Origin: Candidatus Saccharimonadota bacterium
GTDB lineage: Bacteria > Patescibacteriota > Saccharimonadia > Saccharimonadales > Saccharimonadaceae
Length of the DNA stretch: 33,945 nt
NCBI GenBank assembly: GCA_017510425.1
Contig: JAFWNJ010000005.1
Span: forward strand, 1 to 33,945
Direction of reading: 5' to 3'
The position numbers and the translations under genes are program-made. Below, piece by piece: positions 4,728 through 32,154 of the stretch; position 1 is the first letter of the stretch, and the number at the start of each line of letters is the position of its first letter. Under the pieces are notes generated by a model. It was given only the letters and a program-made list of their open reading frames with translations, did no database searches and was not told the origin of the DNA.

Positions 4728-5546
4728 ATGAGTGATTTTTTTACTATATCTGACCCGCTGGATACAATTATCGCAGAGACACTGAGCGACAAAAAAGTCT
4801 TAAAGACCAAGCATATTTTGACAGGATGGACCAATATTGTTATAGAAGTAACGACCGACAAGGGTTCGTATTTTTTCCGGTTCCCGAGAAACCCCTTCTG
4901 GTCGCGAATGATAGTAAAGGATGCGGCGGTTTGTAATTTCGTGGATGGGAAAACCTCCTACTATACCCCACAAATGAAGTTACATTACGATGCGAAAGGA
5001 AGGCCGTTCTCGGTCCACGAGAAGATTGAAGGGTATACGCTAGGGGATAGGATTTATCACTTATCGCACACGGCGATTACGAGCGTGGCATACGATGCAG
5101 CGAAGTTTATTAAGGAATTATCTGGAATTGACTTACGTGGGGCGCCGAAGGAGGTGAAGTTTCCTTTGTCTGAGTTTTTGCACGAGCTAGATTACGAGCA
5201 TTATGATAAGCATATCGATGCAGATCATGAGTATATCCGTGAAACGGAAGGTAATTCCCTGGTGCATGGGGATTTGAACCTTGGGAATATACTGTTAGAC
5301 GAGAACGACAAGATGATTGGCGTGATTGATTTTGCTTTTGCCGGGACTGGGAATCCGAATATGGACGTGGCGCGAATGGTATCACGACCAGCACCGGAGG
5401 AGTTTGAGAGAAAGTTCCTAGAGCAATTCGGCGAAAATGACACCAAAGAAATTTCGCGCATGAAAGAGGCGTGGCGGCATATCGACAACGGTTATGCGGA
5501 ACACATCCGGGCGCATTTCCCGGAGATTAATCTGAATCAGTTGTAG
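4728..5546 (+). CDS. Aminoglycoside-phosphotransferase-fold (APH) kinase
   Basis: The product of 272 residues has the APH/choline-kinase fold. The catalytic loop LVHGDLNLGNILLD (about residues 177-190) carries the Brenner-type HGDxxxxN signature, and VIDFAFAG (about 198-205) supplies the metal-binding Asp. A VRFP-like segment (FFRFPRNPF) stands where the N-lobe lysine region is expected. Family members phosphorylate small molecules such as sugars, choline, amino acids or antibiotics. The substrate cannot be read from sequence, and resistance should not be assumed. The gene is transcribed alone from a leaderless-type promoter and overlaps the next gene tail to tail by 20 bp. Confidence 0.8.
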   Translation: MSDFFTISDPLDTIIAETLSDKKVLKTKHILTGWTNIVIEVTTDKGSYFFRFPRNPFWSRMIVKDAAVCNFVDGKTSYYTPQMKLHYDAKGRPFSVHEKIEGYTLGDRIYHLSHTAITSVAYDAAKFIKELSGIDLRGAPKEVKFPLSEFLHELDYEHYDKHIDADHEYIRETEGNSLVHGDLNLGNILLDENDKMIGVIDFAFAGTGNPNMDVARMVSRPAPEEFERKFLEQFGENDTKEISRMKEAWRHIDNGYAEHIRAHFPEINLNQL

Positions 5547-6345
5547 TGAGGTTCGTCAAGTATTCTATCTTGGCTTCGCGGCGGGCATCGTCGTCTTTTT
5601 TTGGTAAGTCGGCGCAGGTGGAATATTTGTCAAAGGTGGTTCGACAATTTACAATAGGGCCATCGTAGATGGGTGACTTATCATAAACACTCCAGAGAAT
5701 GATGTGAGTATCGGGAGCGTTATTAGCATAGAATTCGAGAGCTTTATCCGTGGCGCGGATGAACTCCTGCTCGGTCTCCTTAGTATGGCGCCAAGCACGA
5801 CCGGAGAGATATTGCTCGGTAACGGTGGGAGAAACCGCAATCATAAGAATCAACATCTCGTAATTCCCTGCCTTTAAGAGCTTCAAGAGAATACTCTCCA
5901 TCTCAGGATCAAGCAGAGTAACATCCAGCAAAATATCGTATCCGCCTTTAATTAATTCCGATAGGGTCAGAAACAACATAATAGTCGCAAACTCGTCCGT
6001 ATTCTTGCGCAAGTTTTCGTCGCCATAGTATTCTTTGATTTCTTGAAAATGTGGATGATATTCGATAAACCTGCGTGCCGCCATCAGGATTGGCTCGTAG
6101 TTATTCTTCTTGCAATATGCCTCCACGGCGGGGAGGATTTGAGTGGTTTTACCAGAACCGGAAATACCAGCGATGCGAATCAAGCGGTGATTCTTGGTGG
6201 CGGAGAGGGTGAAGTCCTTGACGGCCTGTTCTAGAATGGCGGAGTATTCAGCTAGCCCTACTTGCCACTCTGGCTTCACTTGGCTGGGCCAGTGAGCCTT
6301 CATGTATTTAATGATTTGTTCTAGTTCTCGATTACTTTCAGACAT
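5527..6345 (-). CDS. Zeta-toxin-like P-loop kinase
   Basis: The protein has 272 residues. A Walker A motif GISGSGKTT lies at 60-68, followed by a region typical of zeta/PezT kinases: ILLDVTLLDPEM and RAWRHTKETEQEFIRATDKAL. Classical zeta toxins phosphorylate UDP-N-acetylglucosamine. Chromosomal relatives may instead be housekeeping or regulatory kinases. No epsilon-like antitoxin gene is adjacent. Its 5' end overlaps the 3' end of the DAGK-like gene by 25 bp, so the two are probably translationally coupled. The name is a family-level assignment only. Confidence 0.65.
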   Translation of the reverse strand: MSESNRELEQIIKYMKAHWPSQVKPEWQVGLAEYSAILEQAVKDFTLSATKNHRLIRIAGISGSGKTTQILPAVEAYCKKNNYEPILMAARRFIEYHPHFQEIKEYYGDENLRKNTDEFATIMLFLTLSELIKGGYDILLDVTLLDPEMESILLKLLKAGNYEMLILMIAVSPTVTEQYLSGRAWRHTKETEQEFIRATDKALEFYANNAPDTHIILWSVYDKSPIYDGPIVNCRTTFDKYSTCADLPKKDDDARREAKIEYLTNLTTTDSD

Positions 6346-24377: not shown

Positions 24378-24437
24378 TTCCGAAAAAGTCTGGATAATTT
24401 TGGATTTGATTCCAAAAAAGTCTGGACTTTTTTGGAA
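24378..24437. promoter_or_regulatory. Operator-like palindrome and half copy before the ATPase gene
   Basis: A 28-bp palindrome at 24410-24437 has 13-bp arms, TTCCAAAAAAGTC and its complement, around a TG centre. A near-identical half site (TTCCGAAAAAGTCTGGA) begins 32 bp upstream at 24378. The palindrome covers the expected -35 position (TGGACT at 24423-24428, 17 bp before the -10), so a bound protein would block the promoter. An AT-rich stem near 24340-24362 lies between ackA and these sites. Confidence 0.5.
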
Positions 24438-24445
24438 TGGAGTGC

Positions 24446-24451
24446 TATAAT
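24446..24451 (+). promoter_or_regulatory. -10 box of the ATPase gene (leaderless type)
   Basis: TATAAT ends 6 nt before the ATG at 24458. This spacing also decides the start codon against one seven codons upstream. Confidence 0.65.
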
Positions 24452-24457
24452 AGGGTT

Positions 24458-25600
24458 ATGATTAAACGAAGTGCAGAAAAAACAATTAAGGGGTACCTGA
24501 AGAAGAATAAGAGAATTATCGTGATTTTTGGTGCTCGCCAAGTGGGTAAGACCACTTTGCTAGAGTCAGTTTTTAAGAAAACTCCTGACACAATATGGTA
24601 CAGTGGGGATAATGTGAGCACACAGGAGCTTTTTTCTCGTGCTGATTTGAATGATTTGGCTCCGCTGGTTAAGGGATATAAGACCGTAATAATTGATGAG
24701 GCGCAAAGAATTGAGGATATTGGTATTAAGTTAAAAATTTTACAGGATAATTTTGGAGATAAGATTCAGATTGTGGCGACCGGGAGTTCTTCTTTTGATT
24801 TGGCAAATAAAGTCAATGAGCCGCTGACTGGCCGCAAACGTACCATTACACTATTCCCTCTTGCCGTGTCGGAGTTACTCAATGAGTATGGCTATGCCCA
24901 CGAGAAGATAAACCTTGCGAACAGATTGGTCTTTGGGTCTTACCCGGCGGTTGTGACGGGACTGGAGGATGCTAAGGAAACCATCACGGAGCTGGCTTCC
25001 GAGAATTTGTTTAAGGATATCTTGAACTTGGGTGAAATTATTAAGACCGACAAGCTGCGTAAGATTTTGCAGGCTCTCGCGATGCAGGTCGGGAGCCAAG
25101 TAAGTATGAGCGAAATTGGACAGCTGGTCGGGCTAGACAGTAAAACAGTGGATAAATACATTGCATTGCTTGAGCAGTCCTTTATCATCTTTCGGCTTCC
25201 TTCCTTTGCACGTAATCTAAGAAATGAGCTGAAAGCATCTCAAAAAATCTTCTTCGTGGACTGTGGAATACGGAATGCTATCAGTGCGGATTTTCGGCCG
25301 ATAGATTTGAGACCAGATCTCGGCTCGTTGTTTGAGAATTATGTGATTTCGGAGCTGAAGAAGCGATTCCCGAATGATAATATTTATTTTTGGCGAAATA
25401 AGAACCAGCAAGAGATTGACTATGTGATCGAGAAAAATGGTGAGATAACAGCAATAGAGGTGAAGTGGAATGAAAAGAAGGCCGGGAAGCTGCCAAGCAG
25501 CTTTGTGGAGACATATCATCCGGCACATAGCTTTACTATAACGAGCGAGAACTATCTTGACATATTGGGAGGAGATGTGCTGGGGTATCTAGATAACTAG
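24458..25600 (+). CDS. AAA ATPase with DUF4143 C-terminal domain
   Basis: The product has 380 residues. An AAA_14 ATPase core has Walker A GARQVGKTTLLE and Walker B KTVIIDEAQRI, plus VATGSSSFDL as sensor 1. A winged-helix segment (SMSEIGQLVGLDSKTVDKYIALLEQSFII) follows. The DUF4143 domain has a PD-(D/E)XK-like signature, WRNKNQQEIDYVIEKNGEITAIEVKW. The family is widespread and often multicopy in host-associated bacteria, but its function is unknown. An operator-like palindrome and a leaderless-type -10 box precede it, and autoregulation is possible. Confidence 0.85.
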   Translation: MIKRSAEKTIKGYLKKNKRIIVIFGARQVGKTTLLESVFKKTPDTIWYSGDNVSTQELFSRADLNDLAPLVKGYKTVIIDEAQRIEDIGIKLKILQDNFGDKIQIVATGSSSFDLANKVNEPLTGRKRTITLFPLAVSELLNEYGYAHEKINLANRLVFGSYPAVVTGLEDAKETITELASENLFKDILNLGEIIKTDKLRKILQALAMQVGSQVSMSEIGQLVGLDSKTVDKYIALLEQSFIIFRLPSFARNLRNELKASQKIFFVDCGIRNAISADFRPIDLRPDLGSLFENYVISELKKRFPNDNIYFWRNKNQQEIDYVIEKNGEITAIEVKWNEKKAGKLPSSFVETYHPAHSFTITSENYLDILGGDVLGYLDN

Positions 25601-25682
25601 GACGAGAATGGAAGCTATTCTTGAGCTATACCTTTCTGCGGGGACAACATGGGTAGATATTCGCACTAACTTCCTATCAAGC

Positions 25683-27015
25683 AACGGACACTAAATCCGT
25701 AGTACTTAATGCCGTAGTTGGACGGGTACAAGCTCGTAGAGTTTAGGTAGAGGATGTAAGAGAGGCTGTCGTTGCTGTAGTACGCCGACCTACTCCAATA
25801 GTCGCCGCTCGAGCCACGATTGTTCGCGGACGAGCCATTGAAGTAGCCGGAGTAAAGGAAGTTATTCGGGAAGCTTCTAAAGCGATTACTCATAATATCA
25901 CCAGTGCCAATACCGCTCTGGTTATCGCCACTCCCGCCGTATCTTTGAGAAAGAGTACTATATTCTTTATTAGTACCATTACTACTAGGTAAGTGCCAAC
26001 CGGATGGGCAAATGGAAGTATTTGCTGCTTCGGAGGTAGATGAGGATGTATAGTAGTTGGTATTTGCCATAGCGGCAGACCAGGTGTAGTAGTTACCATA
26101 GGATGAGACTGTGGAAGTTTTATAGGTACCACTGGTGGATGGACTTGTAGCATTGGCGTAGTTCTCAGTATAGGTGGGGCTAGACAAGGCGCTAGAATTA
26201 TTGCTGTTATTATAACGTGGGAAGCGGTAACCTGGGCTGTTGGATGTGCCGATATCCTCCAGTACATTGTTGGTGGGATCATAAGTATCTACTGGAGGGT
26301 TGGCAGAGGATTTGTAAATAGTGTTTGCGGTGGTAGAATTGCTAAAGTTAGCAGATTCGGGGTTAGCTAGACCGACGAAATTACCATAAGTACCAGTAGT
26401 ACCACCGTAGCCTTGAGCTAGACTTTGGTTAGTGACGTTACCGTCATTCTTATTATTACCTACAGTCCCAGCTGCTTCCAGCCTTAAGTTCTCTATCATC
26501 CAGCAGTTATCGTCGGCAAGTTTCGCAATAGTATAGACTTCATCATCACGTTTATCGGTTAGGGCAATGATACTATTCTTGTTAACAGTAATCTCACCAG
26601 TGGTACTATTGAAGGTAGTAGAAGCAAGAGCAGCACAAGCATCTGTAGCATCAGTTGGGTCGTCCCATTCTTGAAGATAGACTGGATTATTGTTACCATC
26701 TTTCTCAGCTGGGACCCAGACGGCATACATAGTAATAATATTAGTACCATTAGTAGGATATGCGGGAGCAGAGATAGTCTCCATCGGACCATAGATAATT
26801 GGGTCATTAGTACTGTCATTGTCAGTGAAGTGAGTCCAAGCATCAGGATCGGTAGACCAGCCAGCGAAGCCACTACCAGCTTTTTTGAAGTTAGAAGCGA
26901 GGAGGATTACGGGGTCACCTTCGCCAACATTGGTTTGAGTAACGCTCTTGATGCCGGTAGTTGCATTAGTAGTACCCATACCATTAGGATTATCTGCGCT
27001 GTTGCCATCATATTG
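25683..27015 (-). repeat. Second copy of the internal 1.3-kb duplication
   Basis: It encodes the C-terminal Listeria-Bacteroides/FISUMP unit and aligns along its length with 27597-28985. Differences outside the last ~170 bp look largely conservative, whereas that terminal segment differs mainly by amino-acid replacements. Confidence 0.8.
25685..25858 (-). other. Candidate DGR-type variable region 2
   Basis: Aligned with 27601-27770, this segment differs at codons such as TAC/AAC, AAC/AGC, AGC/GGC, GAC/CTC, ATC/TAC, AAC/TTC, ATT/AAT and CTA/CTG. Nearly all aligned differences can be derived from an adenine in a common template, and third-position C or T is kept. Framework codons such as TGG AGT AGG TCG GCG are identical. 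Confidence 0.6.
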
Positions 27016-27596
27016 GATGGAGTAGACCGGTACCCAATGAGCATATAGTGTAATACCACTTCCTGCGCCGGAGCCACTAGGGACTGTGTAGGTCTTGCCT
27101 ACACCGTATTCGGTATTGGAATTATCTGAATTATCTGCTACGGTAGACCAGCCTTTAATCTTCCAGCCAGTCATGGTGAACTTATTATAGGTGCCAAGAG
27201 TGGCGGCCTCGGTACCAGTACTTGGATTATTAGTAAGATTAATCTTTTGACTATCGGTACCATCTGAAACAGTCTGAGTACAGGAGCTATTAGCACTGGC
27301 GTAAGTTTGGCAGTTGTTGACGTAGGTGATAGTGTATTGTGGATCCCATTGAGCATAAAGAGTTTCGCCAGTAGAACCAGCAGGAATAGTAAAGCTAGAT
27401 GTATAAGAAGTCCCAGAACCATCAGGAGCTGTATTCCAGTTTTTAAATGCATAACCTGGCTTAGCAATAGCAGCAGATGGATTAGAAGAAGAAGGCAAAG
27501 TAATAGTACTACCCGCAGCCCCAAAGGCTATAGAAACCGCGCCAGTGCCATTGTTAGAATCCAGAGCGACCTGCACATCTGCTGAGCCAATAAGAC

Positions 27597-28985
27597 AACG
27601 GACACTAAATCCGTTGCCCTTACTATTGCCGTAGCTGGACGGGTACAAGTACGTAGAGAACAGGCTCAGGTAGTAAGAACCGTAGTTGCTGCCCGCCGAC
27701 CTACTCCAATAGAGGCCGCCCGAGCCACGATTGCTCGCGGGTGAGCCAGTGAAGTTGCCGGAGTAAAGGAAGTTATTCGGGAAGCTTCTAAAGCGACTAC
27801 TCATAATGTCGCCAGTACCAGTACCGCTCTGACTACTGCCTGTGCCACCATAGCGTTGAGAAAGAATACCGTATTCTTTAGTTGTAGTGCCACTAGAAGG
27901 TAAGTGCCAGTTAGATGGACAGATAGAAGTGTTAGCAGCCTCTGAAGTAGATGAGCTGGTATAGTAATTGGTATTAGCCATAGCAGCAGCCCAGGTGTAG
28001 TAATTGCCATAGGATGAGATTGTAGAGGTTTTATAAGTGCCACTGGTGGATGGGCTGGCGGCATTGGTATAGTTCTCGGTAAAGGTGGGACTAGAGAGGG
28101 CGCTGGCATTATTACTATTATTATAGCGGGGGAAGCGATAGCCTGGGTAGTTAGAGGTACCAATATCTTCTAGGGTACTAGTGGACGGATTATAAGTATC
28201 AGTAGGTGAAGCAAGCGAGGACTTGTACATACCGCCATCAGCAAAGCTTAGAGAAGTAGTGGAATTGCTGAAGTTTGCAGATTCTGAAGCAGCTAGACCA
28301 ACGAAATTGCCATAGGTACCAGTAGTACCGCCATAACCTTGAGAGAGGCTTTGGTTAGTGACAGTACTATCGTTCTTATTGTTCCCTACGGTGCCTTCAT
28401 GTTCTAGACGTAGGTTTTCTATCATCCAGCAGTTACCATCAGCTAGTCTAGCTACAGCATAGATCTCATTATCACGTTTATCAGTTAAAGCTACTACACT
28501 GTTTTTATCTACTTGGATCTTACCTTTTTCGTCAGTAATAGTATCATCAAAGATAGTTTGGGTGAGAGTGCTACAACCATCATGCGGGAGAGTAGTATTT
28601 GGATTATCCCAGTTTTGGAAGTAGACTGGAGTACTACTAGGATTAGACGGATCTGTCTTTAGAGCTGGTATCCAGACTGCATACATATTGATTTGGTTTC
28701 TAGTATTAGCTTTACTTGTTAATGTAGAGTCTATTACTACATCTTCCATCGGACCATAGATAATTGGATCATTAGTATTATCATTATCAGTAAAGTGGAT
28801 GTAGGCATCACTATCAGTACTCCAACCAAGGAAGGCGTGTCCAGCTTTTTTGAAGTTAGGAGCTAGAAGGGTGATCTTAGTATCTTCTGCTATATTAATT
28901 TGTCTAACACTTTTCTCACCAGTAGTATTATCTGTAGTACCCATACCACTAGGATTATCTGCACCATTGTCTTGGTATTGGACAG
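27597..28985 (-). repeat. First copy of the internal duplication
   Basis: It encodes the N-terminal Listeria-Bacteroides/FISUMP unit of the giant surface gene. It is slightly longer than the second copy because of a few extra codons, for example around SLSFADGGMYKSS. Confidence 0.8.
27601..27770 (-). other. Candidate DGR-type variable region 1
   Basis: This is the partner of the region at 25685-25858, encoding YSGNFTGSPASNRG to KGNGFSVRC. It has two fewer codons between GCG and TCT but one more near the end. Its position at the end of a lectin-like domain is typical of retroelement-diversified proteins. Confidence 0.6.
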
Positions 28986-29134
28986 AATAAACAAGACAGG
29001 ATGGGTCCATAGTAACAGTATATGTAATGGACGTATTATTGGAGAAAGTATAGCTACCAGGAGACATGGTTTTATCTACAGAAGTTGTATCGGCTACAAT
29101 AATTAAAACAACTAAATTAGGACGTATCACCTGA

Positions 29135-29140
29135 TATAAT
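29135..29140 (+). promoter_or_regulatory. -10 box for the IS transposase
   Basis: TATAAT lies at the left end of the element, with AAGGA upstream of the ATG at 29164. The overlapping minus strand reads TATTAT, 5 nt before the GTG at 29130, so the junction might also promote the truncated surface gene. Confidence 0.45.
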
Positions 29141-29163
29141 ATGTCCAAGGAAAGGATTATTGT

Positions 29164-29499
29164 ATGCCAGAAGAAAAGTATATCGTTGATAAAAACGGTA
29201 ATAAGCGACGAATGCGACGAGCTTATACTGACGAGTTCAAGCAACAAATAGTAAATCTTTATAACACAGGCAATTATACTCGTGCCGATTTAATACGTGA
29301 ATACGAGCTAACAGAAACTGCACTATCTAGATGGATACGCCAAGCAAAGAACAGTGGTTCATTCAGGGAAAAGGATAATCGTACTCCGGAAGAAAACGAG
29401 TTAATTCGGCTAAACAAAGAATTAAAACAACTCAGGATGGAGAACGACATTTTAAAACAGGCGGCACTGATATTCGGAAGAAAGGAAAACCAGCATTAA
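29164..29499 (+). CDS. IS3-family transposase OrfA
   Basis: The product has 111 residues. A helix-turn-helix (YTDEFKQQIVNLYNTGNYTRADLIREYELTETALSRWIRQ) is followed by a leucine-zipper-like helix (ENELIRLNKELKQLRMENDILKQAALIF). Both are standard for OrfA, which binds the IS ends. Shine-Dalgarno AAGGA lies about 10 nt upstream of the ATG. A canonical slippery heptamer lies near its 3' end. Confidence 0.92.
   Translation: MPEEKYIVDKNGNKRRMRRAYTDEFKQQIVNLYNTGNYTRADLIREYELTETALSRWIRQAKNSGSFREKDNRTPEENELIRLNKELKQLRMENDILKQAALIFGRKENQH
29451..29457 (+). promoter_or_regulatory. Candidate -1 ribosomal frameshift site
   Basis: TTTAAAA is read in frame as T TTA AAA, the X XXY YYZ pattern. Slipping back one base joins OrfA to the orfB frame, which is open from here. 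This would yield the fused OrfAB transposase known for IS3 elements. A stimulatory structure downstream was not evaluated. Confidence 0.55.
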
Positions 29500-29552
29500 G
29501 AGCGTTTGTTGATAATCTAAGCAACAAATACAGTATCAGTGCCATATTAAAA

Positions 29553-30389
29553 GTGCTGGAAATACCAAGAAGCGCCCTCTATTATAAAAGCAAGCAAAAG
29601 ATGCCGGACCTGAAACTAGAATCCGAGATCAAACGAATTTTCAAAGAGAGTCGTAGTAATTATGGTACTAGAAAAATACAGGCAAAACTAAAAGAGATAG
29701 GTATCACCACTTCCAGACGTAAAATTGGAGAGATTATGGCAAAGCATAATCTAGTGAGTAATTACATCAAACATCGCCCAAAACAAGGTAGAACAAAATG
29801 TAATGACGATAACTGCCCAAATGTCTTGAATCGTGAGTTTAACAGGGGTAATTCATTTGATGTAGTAGTAAGCGACTTAACCTATGTGAAGGTAGCTGGT
29901 ACTTGGAATTATATCTGTTTAATTGTGGATTTGTGGAACCGAGAGATTGTAGGTTTTGCTGCTGGGGGAAACAAAACTGCGGAGCTAGTTTACGAGGCGA
30001 TAGGCGCTATTCCGTATAATCTAAATCGTATTAATATTTTTCATACCGATAGGGGCAATGAGTTTAAGAACAAACTAATTGATGATGTGATTTTAAAATA
30101 TGGCTTTACGAGGTCACTTAGTAATAAGGGAACGCCACTAGACAATGCCGTTATAGAATCAACGAATCACATTTTGAAAACAGAATTCATAAAACCACAC
30201 GGCAATTTTTCTTCCTTAGAAGAATTAAAAATATTACTGTGGGATTATGTTCACTGGTACAACTACGAGAGATTGCACGGATCACTAAATTACGTATCGC
30301 CAATTCAATATCGGCGACAATGTGAACAAGTAGCTGATGCGAATTTTGTTTATGCTAATTCCTTAAAAAATTGTACGAAAAAGTGTTGA
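29553..30389 (+). CDS. IS3-family transposase OrfB (DDE integrase core)
   Basis: The product has 278 residues from the GTG. The frame is open further upstream and reads ALRAFVDNLSNKYSISAILKVLEIPRSALYY, so the natural product is the frameshift fusion with OrfA. The catalytic triad is D108 (VSDLTYV), D166 (HTDRGNEF) and E202 (NAVIEST), a DD(35)E arrangement. The C-terminus has WYNYERLHGSLNYVSPIQY. The stop TGA is part of the TTGACA that may end the element. It appears intact. Confidence 0.93.
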   Translation: MLEIPRSALYYKSKQKMPDLKLESEIKRIFKESRSNYGTRKIQAKLKEIGITTSRRKIGEIMAKHNLVSNYIKHRPKQGRTKCNDDNCPNVLNREFNRGNSFDVVVSDLTYVKVAGTWNYICLIVDLWNREIVGFAAGGNKTAELVYEAIGAIPYNLNRINIFHTDRGNEFKNKLIDDVILKYGFTRSLSNKGTPLDNAVIESTNHILKTEFIKPHGNFSSLEELKILLWDYVHWYNYERLHGSLNYVSPIQYRRQCEQVADANFVYANSLKNCTKKC

Positions 30390-30409
30390 CATATCAAACC
30401 TTATACGCA

Positions 30410-30973
30410 CTATAATAGGTGCTTAGAGGTAGAAAACTGAAATAGGCTACCGATGGCCGTAAGACCAATTAAGACTGGCCAGTAGAAAACCTGCATACTA
30501 AACTGCGGAAAGAAGGCAAAAATCACCAAAGTAAGAGCATACGCCCCAGCGATGGAAGTTGCAACAATAATCGCAGGTCGCATCATTGTAACCGCGAGAC
30601 CTGCGAGGATTATAGCTACAATCGCACCAATCGCCAATATTTGTATTTCCGTTCCAAAATACCTTACCGTGACAATCATAGTAAGGGCGAAACAAATCCC
30701 ACCAACGCAGAGTTTCTCAATCGTAAATCCCAGCATGGCAAGCAGTAGCCCGCCGGCGATAGGCAGAAGATTCTGCCACAATGCATTATTTATAACGTCG
30801 GGTGCAATCTTGCCGATTGTGGGAAGTAGAATCGTCACGAGATTAAATCCTAGAATAAACCATATTATAAAGAATGCAATTCGCTTAATCCGATAACCGA
30901 ATAGCAACACAGTAAGACCAAGCAATATAAAGATTATGAGTTGATAAGTTTCCATTTCAATGATTGTGTCCAT
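30410..30973 (-). CDS. Polytopic membrane protein of unknown function
   Basis: The product has 187 residues and six or seven membrane helices with short loops. A central GGLLLAMLGFTIEKLCVGGICFAL contains Gly-rich helix packing faintly like DUF4203/TMEM198-type proteins, which I offer only as a possibility. The ATG at 30973 lies exactly 6 nt after TATACT, the leaderless pattern. It runs toward the IS element and ends about 20 bp from it. Confidence 0.75.
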   Translation of the reverse strand: MDTIIEMETYQLIIFILLGLTVLLFGYRIKRIAFFIIWFILGFNLVTILLPTIGKIAPDVINNALWQNLLPIAGGLLLAMLGFTIEKLCVGGICFALTMIVTVRYFGTEIQILAIGAIVAIILAGLAVTMMRPAIIVATSIAGAYALTLVIFAFFPQFSMQVFYWPVLIGLTAIGSLFQFSTSKHLL

Positions 30974-31004: not shown

Positions 31005-31142
31005 GGTAATGCCATTAACTTAAGCATATTTAAGCCCAACAAAAAAAAGTACTTTCAGGAACATGAAGACTTGGCCAGAGCGGCCTGGAGCGTGTCCTGA
31101 AAGTACTTTTTTGTTGGGCATGCTTAAGCTAATGGCATTGCC
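31005..31142. repeat. Very long inverted repeat / terminator after rplA
   Basis: Matching blocks in order from outside in are GGTAATGCCATTA with TAATGGCATTGCC, CTTAAGCAT with ATGCTTAAG, GCCCAAC with GTTGGGC, then an A-run with a T-run, and GTACTTTCAGGA with TCCTGAAAGTAC. The centre has a small GGCC/GGCC hairpin. The arms are about 55 nt with a 6-nt bulge and one mismatch. Read leftward the inner stem ends in eight T, so it can terminate rplA. It is much longer than a terminator needs to be. Confidence 0.75.
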
Positions 31143-31157
31143 TTTAGCAAGGATTAT

Positions 31158-32099
31158 TTAGTTATATAGATTCTCAACCATAATCGAAGGACCCATAGTG
31201 GTAGTCATGAAAACTGACTTCACATAGGAACCTTTAAGCGAAGCTGGTTTCTGAGCTTTCAAAGAATCGAAGAATGCAGTGGCATTTTCCAATATTTTAT
31301 CAGCGCCGAACGAAACTTTACCGATACCAATATGAACAATTGATTGCTTGTCGACACGGTATTCGACTTTGCCGGCCTTAGATTCTTTAACGGCTTTTTC
31401 AATGTCATTGGTAACCGTACCGGCCTTCGGGTTAGGCATGAGGCCTTTCGGACCAAGCACGCGAGCATATTTACCGAGCTTCGGCATGTACTGAGGAGTA
31501 GAAATGAGAACATCGAAATCAATCGTTCCCTTCTCAAGCTTCTTTAGGAACTCTTCATCCTCGGCGTAATCGGCACCGGCTGCCTTCGCGGCTTTACAAA
31601 TATCAGCTGGAGCAAAAACAGCTACCTTCACGCTCTTGCCGTTACCATTTGGTAGCACCAATGTCGAGCGGATGTTCTGGTCAGCTTGCCTTGGGTCGAT
31701 ACCAAGCCTCACATGTAGTTCAACGCTGGCATCGAATTTAACTGGACTGGTCTTAATGGCTAGCTCGGTAGCATCCTTTAAGGAATAAGCCTTACCCTTC
31801 TCAATTAGTTTTGCCGACTCTTGATACTTCTTGCTGCGGCGCTCTAACTTAGGACGTACGATTGGGGCAGCACCCTTTGGCTTAACTTCTTTATCCAGAG
31901 CTTTGCGCTCTTCTTTGCGAGCCTGGCGTTCCTCTTCGGCTTTAACTTCTTCAATGTGTTTCTTTGACTTCTTGCCGGATTTGGCAAATTTCTCTGGCTC
32001 AGCTTCAGTAGCCTCAGCAGGAGCTTCAGTTGTTTCCTCGACAGAGACAGGCTGCTCTTCTGGAACCTGCTCCTCGGCTTTGACTTCTTTTTTAGTCAT
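31158..32099 (-). CDS. rplA: Ribosomal protein L1 with long charged N-terminal extension
   Basis: L1 forms the mobile stalk near the ribosomal E site and often represses its own operon. The L1 body starts at about residue 83 ([24 protein letters not shown]) and is complete, including [21 protein letters not shown] and the C-terminal [13 protein letters not shown]. Before it lies an extension of about 80 residues rich in Glu, Ala and Lys, making 313 residues against about 230. The start at 32099 follows AAAGGA by 5 nt; a longer upstream frame lacks support. The gene has its own promoter. Confidence 0.95.
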
Positions 32100-32154
32100 G
32101 ATTTCCTTTCTGTGGTGCAAACGAATTAATCTCCCACAATTAAATAATGACAAT

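Follow-up and report, generated by a model that had tools for sequence, protein, structure and literature searches.

Two segments of a FISUMP-domain gene in the window (the whole stretch of 33,945 nucleotides that was analysed, contig C10 in a draft genome assembly) are very probably variable regions (VRs) of a diversity-generating retroelement (DGR) that acts in trans, from contig C15, on FISUMP proteins. We put the probability of this reading at roughly 0.9. A reverse transcriptase (RT), a template repeat (TR), five VRs, an adenine bias in the VRs, and a framework made uniform among genes that have otherwise diverged were observed directly. By analogy with known DGRs, an RNA would be read from the TR on C15, and the DGR RT, together with an accessory protein predicted to contain an Avd-like bundle, would copy this RNA and misread its adenines. 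The mutated cDNA would then replace the homologous segments in FISUMP-domain genes, as in the retrohoming of known DGRs. The targets rewritten in this way would be four genes, each on its own contig, with five segments in all, two of them in the window gene.

The target gene in the window is an open reading frame (ORF) at positions 25666 to 29247 of the minus strand, with 1193 aa counted from a TTG. The sequence-only reading had placed two near-copies at 25685-25858 and 27601-27770. Both are present, at 25666-25860 (C10a) and 27583-27771 (C10b), in one common reading frame of this ORF on the minus strand. C10a is C-terminal and extends to the stop codon; its 195 nt correspond to the template plus two codons. 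C10b is internal to the same protein. Each copy is inside a FISUMP domain on the minus strand, at 25678-26166 for C10a (TIGR02145, 54.9 bits) and at 27592-28074 for C10b (TIGR02145, 50 bits), both above the cut-off. The whole protein scored 127.3 bits against TIGR02145 and 48.3 bits against PF09603, where the curated cut-offs are 41.65 and 33.9, respectively, and the model search also found List_Bact repeats in it. The framework is common to the two copies, and the variation between them is mostly at template AAC/AAT codons. On the 3' side of C10b the homology to the TR is short, a point against the DGR reading; it stops about 17 nt after the last variable codons, where the sibling genes have a stop codon. 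The earlier remark that two VRs in one protein are unusual is only partly right. Among the loci examined, two VRs per ORF were seen only in the window gene, but an earlier survey reported several VRs in a single ORF for 31 of 271 multi-VR DGRs (PMC6642488).

The RT, the Avd gene and the TR are absent from the window, as had been stated, and the predicted machinery in trans was found elsewhere: the RT, the only one in the genome, an accessory protein with a predicted Avd-like bundle, and the TR are all on contig C15. The draft genome amounts to 840,325 bases on 30 contigs and is 94.15% complete. Its estimated contamination of 5.37% counts against the DGR reading, yet C10 and C15 share a stretch that is 97% identical. 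One DNA search with C10a returned five other long matches, namely the TR, the VRs on C15, C18 and C3, and C10b. The TR is the AAC-rich near-copy that had been anticipated beside a DGR-type RT. It starts 30 nt beyond the RT stop codon, downstream of the RT and on the opposite strand, not on the RT strand as in the canonical BPP-1-like cassette, and 21 of its 63 codons are AAY. The five VRs are distributed among four genes on four contigs, all for FISUMP-domain proteins. Four are C-terminal and one is internal to the protein, with the domain assigned as FISUMP by model; one is in cis and four, including the window pair, are in trans. The cis gene on C15 has 1055 codons from its listed ATG, and its frame runs longer upstream. 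A sequence-based search for a solved structure related to the FISUMP domain gave no match. The 3' segment TTTAGTGTCCGTTG is common to the TR and the VRs, with a difference of one base in C18.

The alignment with the TR showed that the mismatches of both window segments concentrate on template adenines, in agreement with the footprint proposed from the window alone. In C10a, 17 of 58 adenines and 5 of 133 other bases are changed (p = 1.8e-6), and in C10b, 23 of 56 and 5 of 127 (p = 1e-9). The corresponding numbers are 18/63 and 0/154 for the C15 VR, 25/62 and 6/151 for the C18 VR, and 26/63 and 8/153 for the C3 VR. When the five copies are pooled, the changes affect 109 of 302 TR adenines versus 24 of 718 other bases (p ~1e-41, and p < 2e-6 for each copy); these p values were computed with positions taken as independent, and the pooled copies are related. 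Two third-position changes had also been attributed to a template adenine. This holds for TCA/TCG, where the template has A, but not for CTG versus CTC and CTA, where the present TR has G.

Identity among the VRs follows the same division. The mean identity among the five VRs is 93% at non-adenine TR positions and 53% at adenine positions, while the 300 nt upstream of the VRs are 77% identical. Such a pattern indicates one template writing several genes, as duplication alone would not leave it. Between C10b and the C15 VR, the upstream sequences are 97% identical and the template adenines only 63%. C10a and the C3 VR both depart from the TR at three non-adenine sites (TR positions 105, 111 and 144), two of which are in CTG codons. 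These shared departures suggest that C10a and C3 were last written from an earlier template, with A at the two CTG sites. The trans copies may be older than the cis copy, as each window copy shows five non-adenine differences and the cis copy shows none.

The window gene was written by the DGR, and its 5' end is cut at an IS3-like element, whose two transposase genes, orfA (29164-29499) and orfB (29553-30389), occupy 29164-30389 on the plus strand. The element is outside the DGR but affects the target, at whose 5' end it lies; its family name comes from gene layout and sequence rather than from a model search. A possible 3-nt duplication (ACC) flanks this copy in the region 29095-30410. The homology of the window protein to its siblings begins only at about 29095, just ahead of the transposase genes, and the listed start of the target gene is therefore provisional. 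No signal-peptide N-terminus is present upstream of the window gene in the present assembly. In the C15 target, the start resembles a signal peptide. Contigs C7 (L132) and C5 (L133) both begin with a copy of the last 139 nt of the element, and in each of them this IS end is followed by an orphan FISUMP N-terminus with a signal-peptide-like start. Due to the cut at the element and these orphan N-termini, the window protein may be the product of truncation, rearrangement or mis-assembly.

It is conceivable, although rather unlikely, that the window gene is a former DGR target, from which IS insertion or rearrangement took the signal-peptide end, and that its copies record old rewriting. The upstream region without a signal-peptide N-terminus, the element at the 5' end and the same IS end beside orphan N-termini on C5 and C7 are consistent with such a relic. 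So are the non-adenine differences of the window copies, five in each against none in the cis copy, and the departures from the present TR shared by C10a and C3, as if an older template wrote them. However, the frame is open across both copies for 1193 codons, and the IS repeat may just be the site of an assembly error. The differences between C10b and C15 are mainly at template adenines despite the 97% identity upstream, which points to fairly recent rewriting. The window copy might be a trans target that is still being rewritten.

It is very improbable that the copies came to differ without a retroelement, through gene conversion between FISUMP paralogues, selection or ordinary divergence. 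The FISUMP family is indeed large, with 63 matches to the FISUMP model (counted as pieces) in the 0.84 Mb of the genome, and paralogues can be homogenised by gene conversion. Conversion, however, would not leave the framework intact while scrambling template adenines alone. The changed positions correspond to adenines of a template that is non-coding and adjoins an RT, with the pooled significance given above, and the combination of RT, TR and VR recurs at 83 related loci. The template footprint is present in only five segments; elsewhere in this genome, FISUMP stretches gave poor alignments with the TR and do not show the pattern. A FISUMP C-terminus at the 3' end of contig C13 resembles the TR. 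It was not counted as a VR, as its bias is weak (27/58 versus 36/136).

The RT on C15 matched RVT_1 with 54.7 bits (cut-off 29.6). Its closest solved sequence is the DGR RT of Bordetella phage BPP-1 (8ub7, E = 1.4e-23), and the next is a group II maturase (3e-4). The C15 RT is, by these sequence matches, a DGR-type RT. An RT of another class (group II intron, retron or DRT defence RT) that stands beside the repeats by accident is hardly credible, as the sub-threshold matches to models of these classes are far under the curated cut-offs (for example, group II TIGR04416 at 79.9 bits versus a cut-off of 300), the closest relative of solved structure is a DGR RT, and kin RTs adjoin TR/VR pairs with the same adenine bias at 83 of 102 loci.

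The accessory protein of 341 residues is encoded upstream of the RT, with an overlap of four bases with the RT start. Its structure was modelled with AlphaFold2 using 38 relatives (mean pLDDT 92). The predicted fold consists of an N-terminal XRE helix-turn-helix (HTH), an alpha/beta domain (residues 97-201), and a helical bundle (residues 234-341). The N-terminus matched HTH_3 with 27.7 bits, above the cut-off. Pfam HTH_3 was found in 8 of the 38 family members, and most of the others start close to the middle domain. In the Pfam search with the accessory alignment, no trustworthy match was obtained outside the HTH, including the bundle. In structural comparison, the bundle resembled S23-type proteins (Z 15-17) and Avd (8ub7 and 4dwl, Z 13.6-13.8), while unrelated bundles reached 11.9 at most. 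The model thus indicates that the accessory protein carries an Avd-like bundle. An Avd-type accessory is usual in DGRs, though not universal. MutS was considered for the middle domain and rejected: when the domain was modelled alone, the best Z was 4.8, and three MutS structures gave Z of 3.9-4.4, which is too weak.

In a family-wide search, RT matches were found in 118 of 394 genomes. From these, 102 RT loci were taken, 83 of which have a recognisable TR/VR pair; the loci were chosen by similarity to the C15 RT, and the counts thus describe one lineage. In 77 of the 83 loci, the TR is downstream of the RT and on the opposite strand, mostly within about 100 nt of the RT stop codon. Two arrangements are distinguished. 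In type I (61 loci), the target is upstream and on the RT strand, and in type II (16 loci), it is downstream and on the TR strand. The types interchange repeatedly on the RT tree, for which a midpoint root was used for drawing only. The canonical layout was seen at only two loci, both in other genera. The direction in which the template is transcribed was derived from base bias and not from RNA data: because it is adenines of the template that DGR RTs misread, transcription of the template RNA has to run toward the RT gene. Two loci, L074:1219-3960 and L091:7359-10198, resemble type I loci in which the block of accessory and RT genes has been inverted between TR and VR. Their TR and VR constitute inverted repeats of about 220-260 nt, and recombination could flip the block.

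The 190 nt at the 5' side of the TR contain the motif AAGTNGCTYCT, with one mismatch at most, in 12 of 73 loci, where 0.6 would be expected (p ~1e-12, uncorrected for relatedness). Examples are L056:7964-7974 and L071:8946-8956, both on the minus strand, and in some loci the motif is followed by bases that can pair with the segment adjoining the TR. The TR leader of the window genome itself fits the motif poorly. The motif stretch is perhaps a structured leader of the template RNA. No consensus RNA structure was obtained for the TR leaders, as they are too diverse. A template convergent with the RT, which is almost universal in this lineage and rare in earlier surveys, separates the template RNA from the RT mRNA and provides a natural test of what DGR template RNAs need.

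The same locus is carried by a relative of the same genus, Candidatus Saccharibacteria bacterium from sheep ileum. G261 is the nearest relative when RTs are compared. It has one TR and 19 VRs in FISUMP-type C-termini on many contigs, each VR with an adenine bias of p < 1e-5. Among 16 of these copies, the VR framework is 94% identical versus 81% upstream. G261 (L053, L194-L219) is a 1.1 Mb draft, in which the 19 VRs belong to separate FISUMP genes and two more RTs have their own TRs. Several VRs were found in G295 and only one in G282, and the number of targets thus differs by species. A wider proposal is that, in one genus, the DGR is a genome-wide diversifier of a secreted FISUMP family, with an independent template unit facing the RT, a conserved 5' leader, a fused Avd-like accessory and up to 19 trans targets. 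We regard this as tentative, at slightly below even odds. If it is true, the system could vary host attachment or help escape phages. Saccharibacteria, with genomes of less than about a megabase, presumably live on other bacteria. With one RT and one template serving 5 to 19 genes, they would obtain a repertoire for attachment or escape at little cost. To judge from the signal peptides and the domain type, the varied proteins might bind partners at the cell surface.

The BPP-1 DGR (brt, avd, TR, and VR in mtd) resembles the C15 system in the DGR-type RT, the Avd-fold bundle (predicted here), the AAC-rich TR, and the adenine-directed differences in a C-terminal VR. In the C15 system, however, the TR faces the RT from the other strand, the accessory has two extra domains, and five VRs, one of them internal, are served in FISUMP targets of a cellular genome. 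A hairpin after the VR was described for BPP-1 targets (PMC3240598). When such a hairpin was sought 3' of each VR here, a perfect 6-bp hairpin was found past the C15 VR only. Inverted DGRs (DiGReF group 4, three RTs, PMC3521204; pattern G5, Yan et al. 2019, PMC6642488) likewise have RT and TR on opposite strands. They were reported as rare in those surveys, whereas here, within one RT lineage, the arrangement accounts for 77 of 83 loci, with the target mostly on the RT strand (61 versus 16).

The DGRs of Thiohalocapsa PB-PSB1 (PMC10907252) are similar in their remote trans targets, several VRs per target gene, and IS elements around the targets. They differ in having nine DGR loci and conflict-system targets, in contrast to one RT, one TR and FISUMP targets here. 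DGRs are common in CPR/Patescibacteria (clade 2, Roux et al. 2021, PMC8144416), the same broad bacterial group. Clade 2 DGRs are described as mostly aquatic, with targets without recognisable transmembrane or other domains (PMC8144416), whereas the C15-system targets have FISUMP domains, the siblings have signal-peptide-like starts, and the same-genus relative named above is from sheep ileum. The DGR is a known kind of system, and there are precedents for two VRs per protein as well as for remote targets (PMC6642488, PMC10907252). What sets it apart is the layout typical of one lineage, an accessory with fused domains and, in a relative, the large family of trans targets. In the literature covered, no paper joins DGRs with FISUMP, or Saccharibacteria with FISUMP; the layout may nevertheless have been described earlier.

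Several further features of the window genome were observed. A 13-bp perfect hairpin (CACTTTTGATATCCGAGGATATCAAAAGTG) is directly 5' of its own TR (L014:5830-5860), and few relatives have similar ones. A GC-rich segment with the core GGTCGC-CTCA-GCGACC, in variants, occurs past the C15 VR and near the TR (L014:8430-8500 and 5540-5575) and past the C3 VR (L016), and does not follow the window VRs. Possibly it is a repeat dispersed in the genome. Two ATPase-like genes with a P-loop start, alike by eye, are next to the target in the window (24437-25600, plus strand) and next to the TR on C15 (L014:4132-5346, minus strand). In the window, an imperfect inverted repeat with arms of about 50 nt, recognised by eye, is at 31008-31145, 3' of a ribosomal protein gene (31158-32153, minus strand).
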